A stretch of DNA of 64,000 nt. Source: Enterovibrio calviensis DSM 14347. Its GTDB lineage: Bacteria; Pseudomonadota; Gammaproteobacteria; Enterobacterales; Vibrionaceae. Position numbers and translations under genes: made by a program. The stretch lies in the NCBI RefSeq assembly GCF_000621165.1, contig NZ_JHZA01000017.1, positions 1 to 64,000 of the forward strand, read 5' to 3'. How positions within the stretch are numbered: the first letter of the stretch is position 1; the number at the start of each line of letters is the position of its first letter. A model generated the notes under the pieces. The model was not told where the DNA came from, ran no database searches, and saw only the letters and a program-made list of their open reading frames with translations. Below, one piece after another: positions 1 to 10,323 of this stretch.

Positions 1-53
1 GGTTTGTTTCTAAAGCGGGTTGGCGGCAAGCCGCGGAAGTGCGGAGCAAGGGC

Positions 54-166
54 TAACAAGCAAATCAACGCGGACGTTTACTCGTGGCGCATTTTTACAT
101 AAAAACGCTGTGATTAAGGCGCTTCAATCAGTTTGGGCTAGTAAACGCCCGTTATTAGAACGTTAT
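54..166 (+). repeat. attC site 1 of integron array (type A)
   Basis: Starts with TAACAAG and ends with GAACGTTAT. The two ends are complementary and enclose an imperfectly palindromic core (CGGACGTTTACTCGTGG on the left, GTAAACGCCCGTTATTAG on the right), as expected for a long Vibrio-type attC. It closes a cassette whose left part lies outside the window. The G/TT crossover point is at 162/163. Confidence 0.88.
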
Positions 167-430
167 CCCGTGTTCATAATGAATGCACTTTGCTTCGAGG
201 TTTGGATGGCTAAACCTACTTTCATAGCTAGTGATTTGTATCTGGTTTGGTCGTGATTGAAGCTCTATCGGTTTCTTTCTAAAGCGGGCTGGCGGCAAGC
301 CGCGAAAGTGCAGTGCAAGGGCTAACAAGCAAATCAACGCGGACGTTTACTCGTGGCGCATTTTTCATAGAAATACTGTGATTTAGGCGCTTCAATCAGT
401 TTGGGTTAGTAAACGCCCGTTATTAGAACG
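163..430 (+). other. ORF-less integron cassette, repeat copy 1
   Basis: Complete cassette between two G/TT crossover points. It holds no convincing gene; the longest sensible frame from the ATG at 177 is about 25 codons. Related sequence recurs in the cassettes at 431, 1340, 3499 and 4258, and its right end also matches bases 1-53. This copy lacks one T in a T run that other copies keep, which fits non-coding drift. A short GC-rich inverted repeat (GCGGC-AA-GCCGC) lies just before the attC in each copy. Confidence 0.75.
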
Positions 431-434
431 TTAT
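323..434 (+). repeat. attC site 2 (type A)
   Basis: TAACAAGC...GAACGTTAT, nearly identical to site 1 along its whole length. It ends the first complete ORF-less cassette. Confidence 0.88.
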
Positions 435-805
435 CCCGTGTTCATAATGAATGTATTTTGCTTCAAGGTTTAGTTGGCTAAACCTGCTTTTCATAGCTGG
501 TAATTTGTATCTGGTTTGGTCGCTATTGAAGCTTTATCGGTTTGTGTCCAATGTCGAAACGGTCACAGACTCAGTTGAATTCAAAGCCAAGCTGTTGTTT
601 CTTCTTTGTTTAAACAAGCAATTGTATCGACGTCTCGTACAGTGGTTTGTTTCTAGAGCGGGTTGGCGGCAAGCCGCGAAAGTGCGGAGCAAAGGCTAAC
701 AAGCAAATAAACGTGGACGTTTACTCGTGGCGCAATTTTTCACAGAAACCCAGTGATTTGGGCGCTTCAATCAATTTGGGTTAGTAAACGCCCGTTATTC
801 GAACG
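431..805 (+). other. Longer ORF-less cassette, repeat copy 2 with insertion
   Basis: Same family as the cassette at 163 but with about 105 extra bases near 541-650 inside the shared sequence. A frame of 82 codons (451-699, stop TAA inside the attC start) is open across it, but it uses a different frame from the short one in the other copies and has no good ribosome binding site. I treat it as probably non-coding. A small membrane peptide cannot be excluded. Confidence 0.6.
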
Positions 806-809
806 TTAT
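697..809 (+). repeat. attC site 3 (type A)
   Basis: TAACAAGCAAATAAACG...CGAACGTTAT. Type A with a few substitutions (ATAAACGTGG for ATCAACGCGG, TTCG for TTAG), preserving the palindromic core. Confidence 0.87.
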
Positions 810-834
810 ATGCCTTGTCAGTTCAGGAGAAGAA

Positions 835-1206
835 GTGGATATTTTAGTTGAACAAGAAACCGAGCTTCATTGGTATGAAGTTCGTCAAAGTCGAGCTGAT
901 GTTGAGCGATTGATCCATCCTAGTTTTTCTGAAGTTGGTAAGTCAGGAGTCAGTTTTGACTTCGCTTCAATCGTTAACATGATGAGCTCAGAGGAGCCTT
1001 CGGTCTGCAGAGTTCATTCGCAGAGTTATGAATGTGTTCAACTAGCGCCTTCGGTTCAGCTTCTTAAATATGAGACTGCTTTGGTCGCTCCGACAGGTGA
1101 AATCAGCGACTACGCTAAGCGTTGTTCAATTTGGGCTTTTACAGGTACTTGCTGGCAGTTGAAGTATCATCAAGGAACACCGTGTCCAGCTTTTGAACTG
1201 AGATAA
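835..1206 (+). CDS. NTF2-like / DUF4440 family cassette protein
   Basis: A 123-residue protein with a GTG start preceded by AGGAGAAG. It looks like a DUF4440/SnoaL member of the NTF2-like cone fold. The pattern includes an early Glu-rich helix with 'LHWYEVRQSRADVERLIHP', a central 'FSEVGKSG', and the near C-terminal 'SIWAFTG..WQLKYHQGTP', which is characteristic of the family. These proteins are usually small ligand-binding or enzyme-like cytosolic proteins with no fixed function. It is the only gene of its cassette (806-1339) and is followed 24 bases later by attC 4. Family call is good; substrate unknown. Confidence 0.8.
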   Translation: MDILVEQETELHWYEVRQSRADVERLIHPSFSEVGKSGVSFDFASIVNMMSSEEPSVCRVHSQSYECVQLAPSVQLLKYETALVAPTGEISDYAKRCSIWAFTGTCWQLKYHQGTPCPAFELR

Positions 1207-1230
1207 AAAGGGGCTTGGTGAACTGGCGTA

Positions 1231-1343
1231 TAACAAGAGCATGAACGAGGGACGTTTACTCGTGGCGCTTTTTTCGTAGAAACTCCGTGATTTAGGCGTT
1301 TCAAACAGTTTGGGCTAGTAAAAGCCCATTATGCTAACGTTAT
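1231..1343 (+). repeat. attC site 4 (type A variant)
   Basis: TAACAAGAGCATGAACGAGGGACG...ATGCTAACGTTAT. The left arm differs from the other type A sites (GAGCATGAACGAGG) while the right half is conserved, as expected when the gene and its attC travelled together. Confidence 0.86.
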
Positions 1344-1609
1344 CCCGTGTTCATAATGAATGTACTTTGCTTCGAGGATTGGATAGCTAAACCTGCTTTT
1401 CATCGCTGTTGATTTGTATCTGGTTTGGTCGTGATTGAAGCTTTATCGGTTTGTTTCTAAAGCGGATTGGCGGCAAGCCGCGAAGGTACGGAGCAAAGGC
1501 TAACAAGAAAATCAACGCGGACGTTTACTCGTGGCGCATTTTTACATAGAAACGCTGTGATTTAGGCGCTTCAATCAATTTTGGCTAGTAAACGCCCGTT
1601 ATTAGAACG
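1340..1609 (+). other. ORF-less integron cassette, repeat copy 3
   Basis: About 270 bases between crossover points, closely matching the cassettes at 163 and 3499 over their whole length. It has the same opening CCCGTGTTCATAATGAATG and the same GC-rich inverted repeat before the attC. No supported gene. Confidence 0.75.
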
Positions 1610-1613
1610 TTAT
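1501..1613 (+). repeat. attC site 5 (type A)
   Basis: TAACAAGAAAATCAACGCGG...GAACGTTAT, type A. Confidence 0.88.
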
Positions 1614-1976
1614 CCATCTGTTCTTTTCGTGTTTAGAAAGCGATGTTTGGCTGGCCAGTTCCTCTCTTCGTCGCAGGCTGTATAATCTCAAAACCCTCCT
1701 CAAACCAATCCCAGATTTGATGCAAAACCATGCGGCTATCTTTGCTAAGTTGAACTTAACGTCCTTGGTTTATTGAATGATTTTATCTTTAGGGTCGCAG
1801 TTGCATTCACAAAACGGTGCGTTCTTTGGGTGTTGGCGGCGAAGCCGCGAAAGCGCGGAGCAAGGGCTAACAAGCAAATCAACGCGGACGTTTACTCGTG
1901 GCGCATTTTTTCATAGAAACGCCGTGAATCAGGCGTTTCAATCAGTTTGGGTTAGTAAACGCCCGTTATTAGAACG
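1610..1976 (+). other. Gene-less cassette with unrelated 5' part
   Basis: About 367 bases. The first ~220 bases (1614-1835) are unlike the other cassettes, but the last ~30 bases before the attC share the GC-rich inverted repeat of the repeated cassette family (here GGCGGCGAAGCCGC). A TATAAT hexamer at 1681 is present without a well-spaced -35 box. I see no gene on either strand that I can support. Confidence 0.6.
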
Positions 1977-1980
1977 TTAT
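1868..1980 (+). repeat. attC site 6 (type A)
   Basis: TAACAAGCAAATCAACGCGG...GAACGTTAT, type A. Confidence 0.88.
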
Positions 1981-2019
1981 GTGGCCAATGTCCTACCAGA
2001 TTAATCACGGAGTTAAATC

Positions 2020-2970
2020 ATGGAAGATTCAGAAGTACGCATAAACCTTAAAGATGAGAAGATTCTCGAATACGTAATTTCCAGGTGCGTTGAAGAGGCT
2101 AATAGTAGGCAACTGGCAAGAGAGGAGCGAGCGCATCGGCGTTTTGTAATTACAAGTTCTATACTGGGTGTCGCGTTGCTTTCAGGTGCAATTACTCTGA
2201 CTAAGTACTTTGTATCTGACTCGGTTCGACTGGCTTTCGAGGCCGAGAAAAGCTCAATCGAAGATCGAGCGAGAGCTATTTCAGCCGAACTCGATAGCAC
2301 TTCGCAGAAGATTCAAGACCAAATAGCTTTGCAGTCACTGCGTGATGCAATCAGAGAATTAGAGCAATCAATTGGTTTTAGTAACGACGACAAAAAACGT
2401 ATTATGTCTCTTCTTGAAAATATTAAGAAGTCAAAAAACACGCAAAATTCTCCACAGTTGCCCGTATTGTTAGAGAGTCTACTTGAATCTTTTACATCGG
2501 CAGACCTACAGGAAGAAGTCAGTAAGATTGATACATTGTTTGAAGAACAGCTACTTTCAAATACAACTAGTTCATTCAGACTCTGTAATCACTACGGACA
2601 AAATGTCGTGGGTAGTGTTTCGCTAGCTGAGGCTGTTGTCGATATAGAGAGGATGAAGCTTTATTGCGGAAAGGTCGGAGTTAACGGATTCCCCGAACTA
2701 AAGCTTCTCTATGATCTCCTTTACGAATTTAAGGCGGCAAATCTTACGCCAACGAAATCGACAGACAAACTGGTTGCGGGCGTGGAATATCTGAAAAAAG
2801 CTGATCGAGAAGCATTTGTCGATCTATTGGCTAGATACTCAGATGCCAGCACTTGGACTGTAGAGCCAACTCAAGAGGCGCGAATAATACAGCAAGTGGC
2901 ACTAGAGTTGCTGGCAGCTTACCCAGATATCGCGCCCCACATAACAAGTCAAGGCAATGGGACGCGGTGA
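2020..2970 (+). CDS. Cassette-borne membrane-anchored coiled-coil protein, unknown function
   Basis: 316 residues, ATG start after an AGTTAAATC leader. The first ~43 residues are charged. One membrane segment follows at about 45-65 (SSILGVALLSGAITLTKYF). A long charged, probably coiled-coil region spans ~70-150, and then a helical C-terminal domain. The last residues and the stop run into the following short attC, showing that the gene fills its cassette. I recognise no family. One membrane anchor plus a soluble helical domain would suit a sensor or effector, but that is speculation. The next cassette also encodes a membrane protein. Confidence 0.7.
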   Translation: MEDSEVRINLKDEKILEYVISRCVEEANSRQLAREERAHRRFVITSSILGVALLSGAITLTKYFVSDSVRLAFEAEKSSIEDRARAISAELDSTSQKIQDQIALQSLRDAIRELEQSIGFSNDDKKRIMSLLENIKKSKNTQNSPQLPVLLESLLESFTSADLQEEVSKIDTLFEEQLLSNTTSSFRLCNHYGQNVVGSVSLAEAVVDIERMKLYCGKVGVNGFPELKLLYDLLYEFKAANLTPTKSTDKLVAGVEYLKKADREAFVDLLARYSDASTWTVEPTQEARIIQQVALELLAAYPDIAPHITSQGNGTR

Positions 2971-2995
2971 CCGGCGCCCTTGCTTGAGGCGTTAG
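2942..2995 (+). repeat. attC site 7, short form
   Basis: Only about 54 bases: TAACAAGTCAAGGCAATGGG, then an apical part, then CCCTTGCTTGAGGCGTTAGC. The arms pair as CAAGGCAA-GGG with CCC-TTGC-TTG. This is the compact attC architecture, quite different from the ~112-base sites around it, so this cassette probably came from another integron lineage. The crossover is at 2991/2992. Confidence 0.82.
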
Positions 2996-3018
2996 CTTTT
3001 CAATCAAGGATCGATATT

Positions 3019-3411
3019 ATGTCTGTGAGTTCAAATCTTGAAACATCAAAGTTACTATTTGAAGCAGTTAAAGTAATGGTTCCGGTTCTTACGGCTTTTT
3101 TAACTTTTTATGCTGGTGGTATTGGAAAGTTGTGGGAAAAAATTGGAACAGAATTTGATAGGCAGGATATAGTTTGGATTTCAGTGATTAGCTTTTTTTC
3201 TGTGTCATCTTTAGGTGCATGGGCATTAACTCTAGCTGGTGCAATCGTTTCTACATCAGGAGCTGAAGGGCTTACTATACCATTTTCGGCTAAAGAGGCT
3301 CTCATCGTTGCGCGAGTTTCAATGGGACTCGGTTACTGGTTATTTGTTTGTACACTGATATGCTCAGGATATTATTTTTTAAAATTATCGGTAAAGTTAA
3401 GGAAAAGCTAA
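3019..3411 (+). CDS. Cassette-borne three-helix membrane protein, unknown function
   Basis: I chose the ATG at 3019 (130 residues) because an upstream TTG at 2980 would start inside the attC of the previous cassette. Three hydrophobic segments are visible at about residues 14-32 (MVPVLTAFLTFYAGG), 50-77 and 92-122, and the tail ends in basic residues. The loop after helix 1 carries GKLWEKIG. No family recognised. Its stop overlaps the start of the next attC. Confidence 0.68.
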   Translation: MSVSSNLETSKLLFEAVKVMVPVLTAFLTFYAGGIGKLWEKIGTEFDRQDIVWISVISFFSVSSLGAWALTLAGAIVSTSGAEGLTIPFSAKEALIVARVSMGLGYWLFVCTLICSGYYFLKLSVKLRKS

Positions 3412-3502
3412 CAAGAACTTCAAACGGAAAAAATACAGTTGGCTGTTTTCACTCCGTTCAACATTTTAGCCAACTATATTTTTCCGCTTAAGTAGGCGTT
3501 AT
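3409..3502 (+). repeat. attC site 8, AT-rich divergent form
   Basis: TAACAAGAACTTCAAACGG ... TAAGTAGGCGTTAT. The arms CGGAAAAAATACAGTTGGCT and AGCCAACTATATTTTTCCG are near-perfect complements, giving a long hairpin. Ends and crossover are typical, but the core does not resemble type A or B sites. Confidence 0.82.
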
Positions 3503-3768
3503 CCCGTGTTCATAATGAATGTACTTTGCTTCGAGGTTTGACTAGCTAAACCTGCTTTTCATCGCTGTTGATTTGTATCTGGTTTGGTCGTGATTGAAGC
3601 TCTATCGGTTTGTTTCTAAAGCGGGTTGGCGGCAAGCCGCGAAAGTGCGGAGCAAGGGCTAACAAGCAAATTAACGCGGACGTTTACTCGTGGCGCTTTT
3701 TTTCATAGGAACGCTGTGATTCAGGTGTTTCAATCAGTTTGGGCTAGTAAACGCCCGTTATTCGAACG
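3499..3768 (+). other. ORF-less integron cassette, repeat copy 4
   Basis: About 270 bases, the closest match to the cassettes at 163 and 1340. Same opening, same T run and same pre-attC inverted repeat. No supported gene. Confidence 0.75.
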
Positions 3769-3772
3769 TTAT
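3660..3772 (+). repeat. attC site 9 (type A)
   Basis: TAACAAGCAAATTAACGCGG...CGAACGTTAT, type A. Confidence 0.88.
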
Positions 3773-3800
3773 ATGCTTTTTCAATTTCGGAGTTAGAAGC

Positions 3801-4148
3801 TTGAGTATTGAGTTAATCCAAAAGGAATGTTGTGAGCACTATCAAGCAATATATGCTCCTGTTGAGCTTACTCAGCTTGTTACTATTTCTAAAGGCATTT
3901 ATGAGGGCTCAACCCCGGTCGAAGGGGTTCGTTACCCATCACCAAACCATATGAGTGGTTGGTGGTTAACTACAGATGAATATGACGGTAACATCAGCTC
4001 ATTGGTTACTGTGCATTTTGAGCACATCATTGAAAAACGCCCTGAATTAGCAATATATATGGCTCTTCCTTTTGGGTATCGTTTTAACTTAGGCGGTGAG
4101 TCAGAGCATGTTTGGTTTGATCAAGCAGTTGCAGATGAAAGCCTATAA
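3801..4148 (+). CDS. Small cassette protein, possibly Imm33-like
   Basis: 115 residues with a TTG start eight bases after GGAGTTAG. The centre reads 'SPNHMSGWWLTTDEYDGNI', followed by 'HFEHIIEKRPELAIYMALPFGYRF'. I associate this layout with small immunity-type proteins (Imm33-like), a tentative family memory. No toxin gene lies beside it. It is soluble, with no membrane segment. The stop codon overlaps the first bases of attC 10, so it fills its cassette. Confidence 0.6.
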   Translation: MSIELIQKECCEHYQAIYAPVELTQLVTISKGIYEGSTPVEGVRYPSPNHMSGWWLTTDEYDGNISSLVTVHFEHIIEKRPELAIYMALPFGYRFNLGGESEHVWFDQAVADESL

Positions 4149-4261
4149 CAAAGCAATGAACGTGGACGCCTTGTCAACGCGGAAGCTTTTCAAAGTGTTG
4201 TGAATACAAAGGATTAAAGCAGTTTGGGTAGTTTGATAAGCGCCCGTTATTGCGACGTTAT
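4146..4261 (+). repeat. attC site 10 (type B)
   Basis: TAACAAAGCAATGAACGTGG ... CCGTTATTGCGACGTTAT. It shares a distinct core (TTTTCAAAGTGTTGTGAATA) with attC 13 but not with type A sites. Confidence 0.87.
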
Positions 4262-4526
4262 CCAATGTTCTCAATGAATATACTTTACTCCGAGGATTGG
4301 CTAGCTCGACTTGATTTTTATCGCTGTTGATTTGTATCTAGTTTGGTCGTGATTGAAGCTTTATCGGTTTGTTTCTAAAGCGGGCTGGCGGCAAGCCGCG
4401 GAAGTGCGGAGCAAGGGCTAACAAGCAAATCAACGCGGACGTTTACTCGTGGCGCATTTTTCATAGAAACGCTGTGATTTAGGCGCTTCAATCAGTTTGG
4501 GCTGGTAAACGCCCGTTATTAGAATG
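4258..4526 (+). other. ORF-less integron cassette, repeat copy 5 (most diverged)
   Basis: About 270 bases, aligned end to end with the cassettes at 163, 1340 and 3499 but with more substitutions in the first third (for example CCAATGTTCTCAATGAATAT). The second half is nearly unchanged. No supported gene. Confidence 0.72.
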
Positions 4527-4530
4527 TTAG
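4419..4530 (+). repeat. attC site 11 (type A)
   Basis: TAACAAGCAAATCAACGCGG...AGAATGTTAG. Type A with a changed right end (ATGTTAG). Confidence 0.86.
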
Positions 4531-4546
4531 TTTACACAGAGGCATT

Positions 4547-4912
4547 ATGAAGAAAGTATCCTTAACGCTAAACATACTTTTGATAGCAGCATCTTTCTAT
4601 GCATTATTTACTCTAGGTGAAATATCTTTTTTATTTATGATTGCAGTTTTAGTTGGTGGCGTGGTTTGCAGTTTTACAGTCCAAAGTAGACTCTTGGCTA
4701 GGCTTTCATATTTAGGAAATGTATTTTTTTCTTTTGGTGCGCTTGCGTTCAGTATTTTGTCATTTATGGGCCAGTTGCCTACGACTAAGACAATTACAGA
4801 CTCTTTGTTACTTGGAGTAGCAGTGTTTGTTTTCTTTGCCATTCCGACTGGGTTGAATGCATTTTACGTTAAGGTTAGATATTTCCCCAGAAAAATCAAA
4901 CCAGTAAACTAA
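4547..4912 (+). CDS. Cassette-borne four-helix membrane protein
   Basis: 121 residues from the ATG at 4547, 7 bases after CAGAGG. Four hydrophobic segments cover most of it: about 5-22, 25-46, 55-75 and 85-107, with a basic C-terminus (VRYFPRKIKP). No family recognised. Small multi-helix membrane proteins are common in Vibrio cassettes. The stop is inside the next attC. Confidence 0.68.
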   Translation: MKKVSLTLNILLIAASFYALFTLGEISFLFMIAVLVGGVVCSFTVQSRLLARLSYLGNVFFSFGALAFSILSFMGQLPTTKTITDSLLLGVAVFVFFAIPTGLNAFYVKVRYFPRKIKPVN

Positions 4913-5021
4913 CAAGCAAATCAACGGGACGTTTACTCGTGGCGCATTTTTACATAGAAACGCTGTGATTCAGGCACTTCAATCAGTTTGGGCTAGTAAA
5001 CGCCCGTTATTAGAACGTTAT
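4910..5021 (+). repeat. attC site 12 (type A)
   Basis: TAACAAGCAAATCAACGGGACG...AGAACGTTAT. Type A with a one-base shortening in CAACGCGGACG. Confidence 0.87.
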
Positions 5022-5035
5022 TTTTCAGGAGAGTC

Positions 5036-5374
5036 ATGGCTTTTACTAATTGCTCAATGTGCGGCGAATCATTTCATCTAAGATTCACCTCTTCCGAGTC
5101 AATTGAGGAATTGAAACGAAAAGAGGGTGCCGGCGAAGTCCTTTGTGTTAGCTGTTTCAGAACAATCAAAGAATATGATGTAGTCGAGATAATATCACTC
5201 AACAAAAACGTTCCAGAAGCTCAGATCGGCGATAGCGGTGCAGTTGTGATGGTACATGATAATCGAGCTTTTGAAATCGAATGTGTGCTCAGTGATGGCT
5301 CCACTAAATGGTTGGGGTCATTCGGTAGAGAACAAATAAAGTGGTTGCAATCACCCAATGAGCAAATTACATAA
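5036..5374 (+). CDS. Zinc-ribbon protein with DUF4926-like C-terminal domain
   Basis: 112 residues, ATG start after CAGGAGAGTC. Residues 6-10 (CSMC) and about 37-40 (CVSC) form a CxxC...CxxC zinc ribbon. The second half (EYDVVEIISLNKNVPEAQIGDSGAVV...) matches the small DUF4926 beta-barrel pattern of 'yDvV...GdxGtVv...yeVEf...G'. The C-terminal family usually stands alone in toxin-antitoxin-like or cassette settings; the zinc ribbon in front is an added element. The stop overlaps attC 13. Confidence 0.72.
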   Translation: MAFTNCSMCGESFHLRFTSSESIEELKRKEGAGEVLCVSCFRTIKEYDVVEIISLNKNVPEAQIGDSGAVVMVHDNRAFEIECVLSDGSTKWLGSFGREQIKWLQSPNEQIT

Positions 5375-5487
5375 CAAAGGCTATCAATAGGACACTTTGT
5401 CAACGCGGTAGCTTTTCAAAGTATTGTGAATACAAAGGATTAAAGCAGTTTGGGTCGTTTGGTAATCGCCCGTTATTGCGACGTTAT
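5372..5487 (+). repeat. attC site 13 (type B), last in array
   Basis: TAACAAAGGCTATCAATAGG ... CCGTTATTGCGACGTTAT. Shares most of its sequence with attC 10. No attC is seen to the right of it. Confidence 0.87.
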
Positions 5488-5499
5488 ATTTTGTAGGGT

Positions 5500-5868
5500 A
5501 TGCGAAAAGAAACGAAGGATCAGTTGGATAAGGAAATGGCTAAAGTGTGGCATCAGAAGTTTCGCCTGGTGTTGGTAGCTATTTTCTTTATTGCCGTTAG
5601 TGTTTGGTTGATGCTGAAAAATGAGACCAAGGATGCAACGAATGTTGTGGGAGTTGTCGAGTCACACCAAGCTTCTCTCCATGAAGCAGGGCATACCTTG
5701 CACCTGATGGTTCGACTAACAGATCGCGAAAAACTTGTTCGCGTCAAACTGCCTCAGCGCGAACCAATCAAGAAGGGAGATAAAGTCGAACTAAGAAGAC
5801 TTGGGAGAGCCTTATCTGGAACTGAAAGGCATCTATTCCTCAAATACGTTGACGAGCCAAAAATATAA
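5500..5868 (+). CDS. Single-pass membrane protein at the array end, unknown function
   Basis: 122 residues from ATG 5500 (AGGG 5 bases upstream). A charged N-terminus is followed by one membrane segment at about 22-39 (FRLVLVAIFFIAVSVWLML). Then comes a ~75-residue soluble domain with alternating beta-like stretches (LHLMVRLTDREKLVRVKLP, GDKVELRRLG), possibly an OB-like barrel. It begins at a cassette boundary but has no attC after it. It is either a terminal cassette that lost its site or a resident gene against which the array abuts. Confidence 0.65.
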   Translation: MRKETKDQLDKEMAKVWHQKFRLVLVAIFFIAVSVWLMLKNETKDATNVVGVVESHQASLHEAGHTLHLMVRLTDREKLVRVKLPQREPIKKGDKVELRRLGRALSGTERHLFLKYVDEPKI

Positions 5869-6165
5869 GAAACCAACTTACACAGGTGGCTCCGGACTGC
5901 ATTCAATCAGTTTGATTAAATGATCTTGTACGGAAGGAAGTTGACCACAAGCTATGTAACTATACATCTTGCGCTTAGCTTCAATTTTGAAGCGCGACAC
6001 TTAACTCCGAATTGTCCAAAAATCATTTAGCTGCGATCGCTAAAGACTGCTCTCTGTGTTGCGGGAATAGGGCTTCCAGTTAAGTAGAACAGGAACAGGC
6101 ACTTTGAGAAAACCACAAAACTATCACTTTAGATTTGTAAGCCATCTGATATATCTAGCCCACAA
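5869..6165. other. Intergenic stretch at the array/chromosome junction
   Basis: No attC, terminator or recognised gene. A minus-strand frame of 40 codons (GTG at 6000 to stop at 5878) is open and protein-like in composition, but it has no recognised relative. I do not call it. Confidence 0.4.
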
Positions 6166-8068: not shown

Positions 8069-9274
8069 TCAGCAACGTTTCAGAATTAACGCGGTGCCCA
8101 TGCCGCCGCCAATGCACAGCGACGCCAAACCGTAATCTTGTTGCGTGCGTTGCAGTTGGTATACCAGCGTGGTGACAATACGGTTGCCAGATGCGCCGAT
8201 AGGGTGACCAAGTGCAATCGCGCCGCCGCTCAGGTTGCTTCGCTCTAACAGCCAGTCTTGTTCGATCTGATGTTCTTCGGCGACTTCTTTGATCACGCCA
8301 AGGGCTTGTGCGGCAAAGGCTTCGTTCAGTTCGAATACGTTGATGTCTTCGATGGCCATTCTTGCCTTGGTTAAGGTGTTGGCGATGGCTGAAACAGGGC
8401 CAAGTCCCATCACTTCAGGCGCAATGGCACCTTGTCCGTATTCCACCAATTCTGCCAATGGCGTCAAGTTGTGGTGTTTCACTGCGCTTTCTGATGCCAG
8501 CAAGATTGCCGAAGCGCCATCGTTAATACCGGACGCGTTGCCCGCCGTCACGCTGCCTTGTTTGTCGAAAGCTGGGAGCAGTGCATGTAGCCCTTCAAAG
8601 GTGGCGTTTGATTTTGGGTATTCATCGTCTTTGACGTCGAACTGGCGTTTGCGCTCAGTGACGGTGATTGGCGCAATTTCCGCCTCGAAGTGACCGTTCT
8701 CAATGGCATTCACGGCTTTTTGTTGGCTTTGTAGGGCAAACTTGTCCTGCGCTTCGCGGCTGATATTGCATTGTTTGGCGATATTCTCAGCGGTGACGCC
8801 CATGTGGTAGTGATGGAAGGCATCGGTTAAGCCGTCTTTAATGATGCTGTCTTCCTGCATTTGATGACCCATGCGAACTCCACGGCGAATTTGTCCGGAG
8901 GTCACATAGGGCGCATTGGACATGCTCTCCATGCCGCAAGTGAGGACGATTTGAGCATCGCCAGCGCGGATATGGCTGGCACCGTCCATGATGACTTTCA
9001 TGCCGCTGCCGCAAATCATGTTCAGGGTGTAGGCTGGCACAGTATCAGGAACGCCGGCTTTGATGGCAGCTTGACGACCTGGCCCCATGCCTGCGCCGCC
9101 CGTTAGCACATTGCCCACAATGACTTCATCGATAAGGTGAGGGGTGATGTTTACTTGCTCAAGTGCGGCTTTCATCGCGTGTGCGCCAAGATCAACGCCT
9201 GACAATGGCGCGAGAGAACCGTTAAAGCTGCCGATTGGCGTGCGCTTAGCCGCCACAATATAGATGCGTTCCAT
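8069..9274 (-). CDS. atoB: Acetyl-CoA C-acetyltransferase (thiolase II)
   Basis: 401 residues, the usual length of biosynthetic/degradative type II thiolases. It has the acyl-accepting Cys in LNMICGSGMK (~90), the GHPIGASG histidine motif (~356) and the second catalytic Cys in CIGGGMGTA (~386). It splits acetoacetyl-CoA into two acetyl-CoA, the step after CoA transfer to acetoacetate. It is the first gene after the LysR regulator and lies in the same direction as both transferase genes, forming a three-gene ketone-body operon. Confidence 0.93.
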   Translation of the reverse strand: MERIYIVAAKRTPIGSFNGSLAPLSGVDLGAHAMKAALEQVNITPHLIDEVIVGNVLTGGAGMGPGRQAAIKAGVPDTVPAYTLNMICGSGMKVIMDGASHIRAGDAQIVLTCGMESMSNAPYVTSGQIRRGVRMGHQMQEDSIIKDGLTDAFHHYHMGVTAENIAKQCNISREAQDKFALQSQQKAVNAIENGHFEAEIAPITVTERKRQFDVKDDEYPKSNATFEGLHALLPAFDKQGSVTAGNASGINDGASAILLASESAVKHHNLTPLAELVEYGQGAIAPEVMGLGPVSAIANTLTKARMAIEDINVFELNEAFAAQALGVIKEVAEEHQIEQDWLLERSNLSGGAIALGHPIGASGNRIVTTLVYQLQRTQQDYGLASLCIGGGMGTALILKRC

Positions 9275-9371
9275 GTCACCAGTACTCCCATGCTTGCGAT
9301 TTGTTATTTGCTAACTGCTTTTCAGCTTACGGAAGGGGAGCGGGAGTCGATATAGACAGAAATTCAAAGTG

Positions 9372-9391
9372 GCTTTGCAAAAATGCAAAGC
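9372..9391. promoter_or_regulatory. Perfect 8-bp inverted repeat, candidate LysR operator
   Basis: GCTTTGCA-AAAA-TGCAAAGC lies about 100 bases upstream of the thiolase start and 40 bases after the LysR stop. No T run follows on the minus strand, so a binding site for the neighbouring LysR protein is more likely than a terminator. This is inference. Confidence 0.5.
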
Positions 9392-9432
9392 AGGAAAATT
9401 AGGCGAGTGGAGGCTCTATAAACAAGATTTTG

Positions 9433-10323
9433 TCAGCAAGGATTATCCAGTAAGAAATCTTTAAATTTACTGGCGACGGGCGAGGCGACACTGGCAGGGT
9501 GGTAGTAGAGGTTCAGGCTCCAAGTGCTGGTGTTAAAGTCTTGCAGCAAGGGAATTAGCGCGCCGCTTTCGACCGCTTCTTGGGTGACAAACTGAGGCAG
9601 GTACGCGACCCCAGCCCCTTGGGAGACGCCACGTAGCAAGAGGTCGCTGTCGTTCACTTCAATGGTTTTTGGCACTTTCAGTACGATGTTTTCAACGCCT
9701 TTTTGGAAGATCCATTCGTTGCTGCCAGTGAGTGTGGTGGCGACAAGACAAGCGTGTTCGTGTAAATCTTCTGGCTGGGTTGGCAGGCCTTGTTGCTCTG
9801 TGTATTGCGGTGAAGCCACCACCACAAACGGAGAAGCCAACAGTTCCCTTTTTACCAGCAGCAAATCCTTTTCACGGTAGCCTTGAAAGCGGGCGTTGGC
9901 GCTGATCATCAAATCGCTGGTGCTGGCATGGTCGAGTGCCCAAGGCGTGACGTTGATGTTGAACGTCACTTTTGGGTTGAGTCGTGTGTACTCGGTGATT
10001 TTGTCCATCAAATAGTGGTTGGCATAAACCGGTGTACAGGCAATGTTGATGTGGCCTTTTTCATGATCCTGAAAGCCCGCCAGCTTTTGACTAATGCGCT
10101 CGGCTTTGTCGACAATCGGAGAAAATTCTTCATAGAGGGTTTGGCCTGCCTGTGTGGCTTCCAATAGGCGGTTTGAACGATGGCACAGCGTGGTGCCGAA
10201 ATGTTGTTCCAACTCTTGAAGCCAGCGGCTTCCCGCAGAGACGGAGACATTGAACTGACGCGCCGCAGAAGAGATAGAACCTGTACGGATCACGTAGATA
10301 AAGAATGCCATTTTATCGAGCAT
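9433..10323 (-). CDS. LysR-family transcriptional regulator of the ketone-body operon
   Basis: 296 residues. The N-terminal winged HTH (MAFFIYVIRTGSISSAARQFNVSVSAGSRWLQELEQHFG) is of CrgA/YafC-like LysR type, followed by the periplasmic-binding-protein-like effector domain (from ~90). It lies upstream of and in the same direction as the thiolase/CoA-transferase genes, unlike the more usual divergent arrangement, with a 158-base gap holding a palindrome. Probably senses a short-chain acid or CoA derivative; the ligand is not visible from sequence. Confidence 0.88.
   Translation of the reverse strand: MLDKMAFFIYVIRTGSISSAARQFNVSVSAGSRWLQELEQHFGTTLCHRSNRLLEATQAGQTLYEEFSPIVDKAERISQKLAGFQDHEKGHINIACTPVYANHYLMDKITEYTRLNPKVTFNINVTPWALDHASTSDLMISANARFQGYREKDLLLVKRELLASPFVVVASPQYTEQQGLPTQPEDLHEHACLVATTLTGSNEWIFQKGVENIVLKVPKTIEVNDSDLLLRGVSQGAGVAYLPQFVTQEAVESGALIPLLQDFNTSTWSLNLYYHPASVASPVASKFKDFLLDNPC

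Follow-up and report, generated by a model that had tools for sequence, protein, structure and literature searches.

A diverged superfamily of gene-less integron cassettes with a GC-rich dyad next to attC in Enterovibrio calviensis and other Vibrionaceae

The window analyzed here, a stretch of 64,000 nucleotides (nt) of Enterovibrio calviensis DSM 14347 (contig NZ_JHZA01000017.1, positions 1 to 64,000, called C12 below), opens inside an integron cassette array in which one gene-less cassette, named A here, is present repeatedly. We tentatively propose, as a reading that is possible rather than probable, that A and a distant relative in the same array, cassette B, belong to an old superfamily of integron cassettes without genes, which act as non-autonomous mobile elements, similar to miniature inverted-repeat transposable elements (MITEs), and are moved by the integron integrase. 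The cassettes have exact boundaries, their diverged copies are mixed with gene cassettes, they occur in several genera with different attC sites, and deletion derivatives of them have multiplied. The most conserved part of their body is a short GC-rich dyad placed just before attC.

Read by eye, the cassettes of this part of the array start at positions 163, 431, 806, 1340, 1610, 1977, 2992, 3499, 3769, 4258, 4527, 5018, and 5484. Crossover points of the G^TTRRRY type at 163, 431, 806, 1340, 1610 and onward, together with an attC at the cassette ends, identify them as integron cassettes. The earlier note had described five A cassettes aligning end to end, and this was confirmed, with G^TTA boundaries and an alignment that extends over body and attC. 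All of them lie on the plus strand. The short form occupies positions 163-430 (268 nt, one base missing; dyad core at 290-304, attC from approximately 322), 1340-1609 (core at 1468-1482), 3499-3768 (core at 3627-3641) and 4258-4526 (core at 4386-4400), and the long form, considered ancestral, positions 431-805 (375 nt; core at 664-678). A further A cassette is truncated by the contig start, and its 3′ part remains on the plus strand at 1-162, with an exact dyad core at 21-35 followed by attC and 93% identity to positions 108-268 of the cassette at 163-430, which was used as query. The single-base deletion in this query copy was also confirmed, and a short copy at C7:276911 has a deletion at the same place. 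Positions 163-5483 contain 12 complete cassettes (boundaries by eye), of which six are of the A type if B is included. The coding cassette at 806-1339 carries an attC of the same type as A (1231-1332, plus strand, 84% identity to query positions 161-261).

The search of the E. calviensis genome with the 163-430 cassette gave 38 matches, including those to attC only, on contigs C7, C12, C13, C14, C21, and C1. Complete A copies numbered 13 of the short form (268-270 nt) and four of the long form (374-375 nt; C12:431, C13:4779, C7:273008, and C7:276537). The complete short copies had expectation values (E) from 8e-95 to 3e-137, which excludes chance. Fragments of A were found at C12:1-162, C13:2967-3092, from C7:277785 to the contig end, and at C7:48795. 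The last of these (C7:48795-48920; L013:2796-2921) is the head of a short A cassette lying outside the array, after the sequence GAGGCG^TTATCC, and it is possibly a secondary-site insertion or a moved fragment. The integron integrase gene is located at C7:271010-271951 (TIGR02249, 448 bits), beside a part of the array with many A and B cassettes, and after the first cassette following it A, A-long, A, B, and A are arranged consecutively. The part of the array in the window is on a contig different from that of the integrase, the link between both being their shared cassettes only. The contigs of the array end within or close to copies of A.

Regarding the long copy at 431-805, its additional bases, about 105, had been taken for an insertion. 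The comparison reverses this, as homologous sequence is present at that place in the four long copies of this genome, in Grimontia indica and in relatives from other genomes; thus, the short form arose by deletion. The unit absent from the short forms spans positions 539-643 (plus strand), with GGTTTGT direct repeats at 539-545 and 644-650, and the sequence comparison indicates that the short form lost 105 nt between these repeats and multiplied afterwards. The base adjacent to the junction is TTTCTAAAGCGG in 12 of the 13 short copies, T in the remaining one, and TTTCTAGAGCGG in the four long copies of this genome and in G. indica. The long form was found once in the sister genome G011 with 83% identity, in a cassette identical to one of Grimontia indica AK16. 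G. indica also has a short form of its own (L143, G011:C75) with a different internal deletion, since it covers profile positions 3-153 and then 212-271, with 154-211 absent. Further deletion derivatives are a short B cassette near C7:276.3 kb and the A fragment on C13 cited above, which has lost part of attC.

Among the 17 complete copies of this genome, the mean difference is 10.2% for the head, 6.5% for the tail, and 6.4% for attC. This 6-10% divergence rules out simple recent duplication and, together with the number of copies and the relatives found in other Vibrionaceae, agrees with the repeated retention that had been suggested from the window alone; the accompanying suggestion of an efficient duplication also fits the data. 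The distances in one part of a copy did not predict those in another (Mantel r from −0.10 to 0.02), and linkage disequilibrium was higher for sites within 40 nt (r2 of 0.112 vs. 0.077 overall, p = 0.0005). These patterns fit either recombination among copies or a star-like origin.

Cassette B (1610-1976, plus strand) is a distant member of the A superfamily, matched by nhmmer with E of 1.8e-13 over profile positions 12-271, and its dyad, GCGGC-GAA-GCCGC, lies at 1836-1848. B-type cassettes were also found in genomes G005 and G012, in rows about 370 nt apart. The earlier note had proposed to search the arrays of other Vibrionaceae for the cassette, and relatives were found there: with a sequence-only model built from 18 bodies and five candidates scored per genome, the body superfamily was detected in 16 of 329 genomes and in four of 13 genera, namely 10 of the 18 genomes of the own genus, two of genus g6, one of g7, and three of g12. 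When more candidates were considered, 11 of the 18 own-genus genomes matched at E of 0.01 or better, one of them weakly, and after rescoring G022 and G031 had 28 and 23 matches, respectively, fragments included. Local alignments of the long form with cassettes of G007, G014, and G031 scored 80-138 vs. at most 43 for shuffled sequences. Among nine loci aligned against A, seven were well above shuffles and two (L065 and L070) were not, and G187 is a borderline case with E of 4.7e-7 for the full model but no body signal once the tail was removed. The attC sites that follow related bodies differ between genomes. From the hits covering at least 170 profile positions, 46 bodies were extracted, of which 38 were analyzed by subfamily (A, 5; X, 5; g6, 14; B, 14) and eight were left out because they contained N or fell outside the subfamily rules. 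A scan of contigs yielded G. indica only, apart from two chance matches in unrelated phyla, and the one match to a viral contig was also due to chance. Among plasmids there was a single match, in Salinivibrio and confined to attC, and none for the X frame. The copies within this genome and their homologues in other species resemble each other over the whole cassette length and vary without a codon-like pattern, as is characteristic of paralogous non-coding cassettes.

The dyad, TGGCGGCAAGCCGCG, has 15 nt and is the most conserved window of the body. It lies 19-22 nt upstream of the R″ box (TAACAA) wherever this was measured, although the bases in between vary by subfamily; B has the form GCGGC-N3-GCCGC with a three-base loop. 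In the alignment of 18 bodies it forms 15 consecutive invariant columns, the permuted maximum being 10. A fairer test was carried out with a body model lacking the dyad, on loci which had not been fetched by dyad patterns. Among the 45 distinct members thus obtained, the dyad was exact in 26, had one mismatch in six and 2-4 mismatches in three, and was lost in 10. Computed on the 35 members with at most four dyad mismatches, it was the best of 225 windows of 15 nt, with a conservation of 97%, compared with a mean of 79% for all columns and 90% for the second-best window. The exact 15-mer occurred 44 times in eight of the 329 genomes (control, 0), and the pattern of the dyad followed at 16-26 nt by TAACAA gave 68 matches in 15 of the 329 genomes (reversed control, 0). 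Within the stretches scanned, every dyad followed by TAACAA belonged to a superfamily member, and none of seven looser matches elsewhere was within reach of a TAACAA.

The dyad-attC module was also found on bodies which cannot be aligned with A, in G036, G136, and G218. The last genome has three pattern matches, and at its locus L188 a cassette with the dyad before TAACAA has a body that is unrelated and lacks a long open frame. An order-wide scan of 394 genomes gave matches in eight, the own genome included, with two hits in the control. Three of them (G652, G640, and G443, from two other families) resemble cassettes, with full complementarity between R″ and the first nine bases. The bodies of G652 and G640 (L195 and L197), from families outside the Vibrionaceae, are homologous to each other (216 vs. 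at most 44 for the null) but not to A. The cassette of G443 (L198) carries the dyad and a 102-codon open frame on the plus strand, and may be coding. The matches in G683, G560, G527, and G442, like that of G219 in the Vibrionaceae scan, were judged to be chance or terminator-like. Homology between the bodies of the A superfamily and those of other dyad-bearing cassettes was unsupported in 28 comparisons, most of them within the null; the strongest were L183 vs. g6 (equalled by none of 100 shuffles), L198 vs. g6 (by one), and L195 vs. X (by three).

In the proposed explanation the integrase of the host would excise and reinsert the A and B cassettes, recombination between copies would mix them, and the dyad would be a DNA element that acts in cis at the attC end and favors mobility or retention. 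It could, for example, fold into a hairpin in the single-stranded bottom strand while the cassette is excised or integrated or while the second strand is synthesized. The nearly fixed distance between dyad and attC, with a changing sequence in between, suggests that geometry relative to attC matters, so that the dyad would act as DNA, either when cassettes recombine or when the single strand is copied. The structural role contemplated in the earlier note fits best in this form, as DNA and narrowed to the 15-nt GC dyad near attC, while a structured RNA shared by the family is unsupported. A role of the dyad in transcription, as the 3′ hairpin of a transcript, would also be conceivable. We further considered that the dyad might be a previously undescribed accessory hairpin of the attC end in integron recombination, defining a class of selfish gene-less cassettes on unrelated bodies in Vibrionaceae and in other families of the order; this wider proposal is unlikely, yet not negligible.

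Several observations weigh against our explanation. The 18-body alignment had been partly picked by the dyad string itself, so that its permutation test is biased. Eight of the 45 body members have no dyad and run directly into an apparent attC end, and five more have 2-11 mismatches in it; therefore, the dyad is not needed for the body to persist. These eight copies, from G022, G031, and G007 (L173, L175, L168, L172, L167, L174, L162, and L135), seem to have lost most of attC too, and may be immobile relics. Moreover, two B cassettes of the own genome and the copy at C7:277785 carry an uncompensated change in the dyad, coding cassettes lack the dyad and are cassettes nonetheless, and the match between cassette start and R″ is barely higher within a cassette than between groups (2.94 vs. 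2.44 of 5). The incompatibility test for recombination among copies was not significant (p = 0.31).

The retention of A could alternatively be due to promoter activity, the gene-less cassette driving the cassettes downstream or transcribing against those upstream; a promoter is among the possibilities named in the earlier note. Of 29 gene-less Vibrio cassettes, most are reported to act as promoters on the sense strand (Blanco et al., 2024; PMC11014356), and expression of non-coding cassettes is detectable according to PMC2945992. We also found recurrent weak sites in the superfamily, on the plus strand of X at position 92 (four of five sequences) and on the minus strands of g6 at 214-215 (eight of 14) and of B at 3 (six of 14). 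Against this, there were four sigma-70-like sites in 6 kb of the window vs. 10.3 expected from shuffles, with none in any A copy, and the mean best matrix scores fell under the shuffled mean in all 10 set-strand combinations (51 sequences in five sets), with an ad hoc promoter matrix and shuffles that preserve base composition only. In addition, the best conserved window is the GC dyad. The suggestion of a sigma-70 promoter thus obtained no computational support from site counts or matrix scores. Blanco et al. (2024) found that promoter prediction did not track measured activity, and therefore the negative scan only weakens this alternative, which we consider unlikely although of some weight. 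The cassette might instead encode a small RNA or an antisense RNA. Consensus folding by subfamily with RNAalifold gave z-scores (plus/minus strand) of −2.7/−0.2 for A (five sequences) and −3.4/−3.7 for X (five), but only −1.5/−0.6 for g6 (14) and −0.3/−0.6 for B (14), and −6.9 kcal/mol for the 18 bodies. With trimmed ends, a mixed A and X set of 10 reached −3.9 on the plus and −2.5 on the minus strand; the corresponding plus/minus values were −0.8/−3.0 for g6 (24), −1.0/−4.5 for A (17), and −0.4 and −1.1 for B (19), these four sets being overlapping. For the mixed g6 set and the mixed A set, little beyond a small hairpin is left in the consensus, and on this hairpin the minus-strand values of −3.0 and −4.5 rest. 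The 13 short copies had a z of −1.0, or −2.1 when trimmed, and one copy alone folded at −1.27; among these short copies paired positions had changed on both sides in 2 of 585 cells vs. 19 broken. The head of A pairs with the tail before the dyad at a mean of −15.8 kcal/mol in five long copies (matched by 3% of shuffles) and −15.3 kcal/mol in the 13 short ones (matched by 9%), but for X, g6, and B the duplex energies resemble those of shuffles (−10.8, −10.8, and −9.6 vs. −10.3, −9.6, and −12.0, respectively). Rfam 15 gave no match at gathering score in positions 1-6000 of the window or in L009, L010, L139, L126, and L034; one match in the window, with E of 0.82, was due to chance. The compensatory changes that the earlier note had proposed to look for are hence not shared across the family. 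A alone may fold, there is no larger fold common to all subfamilies, and an RNA product seems very doubtful to us. A bottom-strand attC hairpin was predicted for one copy, in a stretch that folds no better than its shuffles (z = −0.43).

The absence of a conserved reading frame, also stated in the earlier note, holds in that no frame is under clear purifying selection. The cassettes could nevertheless be gene remnants, the long form having once coded for a protein of about 82 amino acids and the copies being pseudogenes that drift and were duplicated neutrally. An 82-codon frame is indeed open at 451-699 (plus strand) in the long copy C12:431-805 and in G. indica, and in five long copies its ratios of nonsynonymous to synonymous substitutions (dN/dS) range from 0.24 to 0.78 (ten pairs, stop codons excluded). 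One plus frame is poor in stops in each subfamily, with 14 in 425 codons vs. 22 and 21 in A, 2 in 422 vs. 25 and 27 in X, 32 in 1132 vs. 71 and 57 in g6, and 22 in 1177 vs. 73 and 58 in B, and A and X have a short translated stretch in common at the head. However, the 82-codon frame is open in only one of the four own long copies, the other three having 1-3 stops, and was judged incidental. Stops were listed in 11 of the 13 short copies and the other two have the 1-base deletion. Pooled dN/dS was 0.59 in this frame and equally 0.59 in an antisense frame, so that no frame stands out, and the values over all sets and frames were 0.47-1.47. Moreover, past the head A, X, and B have diverging open frames, many of the indels that separate subfamilies have lengths not divisible by three, no ribosome-binding site was seen by eye, and Pfam and NCBIfam gave no match above cut-off; as candidates for a small protein, the weak matches to Ago_MID_bact (E of 0.17) and lipoyl synthase (E of 0.06) were discarded, being far under it. 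The longest open reading frame (ORF) wholly inside the four short copies of the window has 42 amino acids, those of 78 and 60 amino acids crossing a cassette boundary. By the length rule of Blanco et al. (2024), for whom gene-less means that a gene is not annotated and that there is no ORF above 210 bp, the copy at 431-805 exceeds the limit through its 82-codon ORF. A protein-coding cassette would be expected to keep a frame open under purifying selection; none was found, and the stop counts lean the other way. We judged the A cassette to be non-coding, an ancient gene origin being conceivable. As the explanation of the present copies, decay from a former gene is rather improbable.

Two further features of the array were observed. 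A small cassette at C7:277180-277514 (L009:13181-13515) is without an obvious gene and does not match the A superfamily. On C13 the array is interrupted by two stretches that resemble IS110-type transposase genes (L011:1200-2240 and approximately 8900-9935).

MITEs are short, gene-less, multi-copy elements that are moved in trans, and their internal-deletion derivatives multiply. The A cassettes resemble them in these features but differ in that they would be moved, if at all, by the integron integrase through attC. With regard to integrons, non-coding and highly paralogous cassettes of Vibrio were described by Boucher et al. (2006; PMC1382264), who give 45 copies for a single family of V. vulnificus CMCP6 and suggest that such cassettes may be selfish elements, promoters or RNA; they found no homologues of them beyond vibrios. 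The A cassettes are like them in being multi-copy, gene-less and similar over their whole length between copies and species. Unlike them, the A superfamily is distributed over four genera of Vibrionaceae, and the dyad-attC module is also carried by different bodies and extends to two further families; the family of V. vulnificus CMCP6 and A were set side by side by description only. In gene-less cassettes, Blanco et al. (2024) observed both activity as promoters and the remains of degenerated genes. A is likewise a gene-less cassette of Vibrionaceae, and some of theirs derive from degenerated genes, but the short form of A has 268-270 nt vs. 491-666 nt there, no promoter-like site was predicted in it, and no such dyad appears in the parts of that article considered, the two being compared by description. 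We recognized no description of the A superfamily or of its dyad in the open-licence literature, where a search for a 13-mer string of it was also empty. Accordingly, multi-copy non-coding cassettes and promoter activity in gene-less ones were already known, and what appears to be new relative to the literature searched is the superfamily with its positioned dyad, to which a function can be attributed only provisionally.

Why arrays hold so many empty cassettes is a question raised in 2006 (Boucher et al., 2006) and still debated (Blanco et al., 2024). With the family reported here there is one short, conserved element at a set position, which could be deleted or shifted to test its part in recombination. 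An effect of the dyad on mobility would mean that integrons have non-autonomous parasites of their own, and an effect on transcription would make regulators of empty cassettes. Both outcomes are relevant to the growth and shuffling of large cassette arrays.

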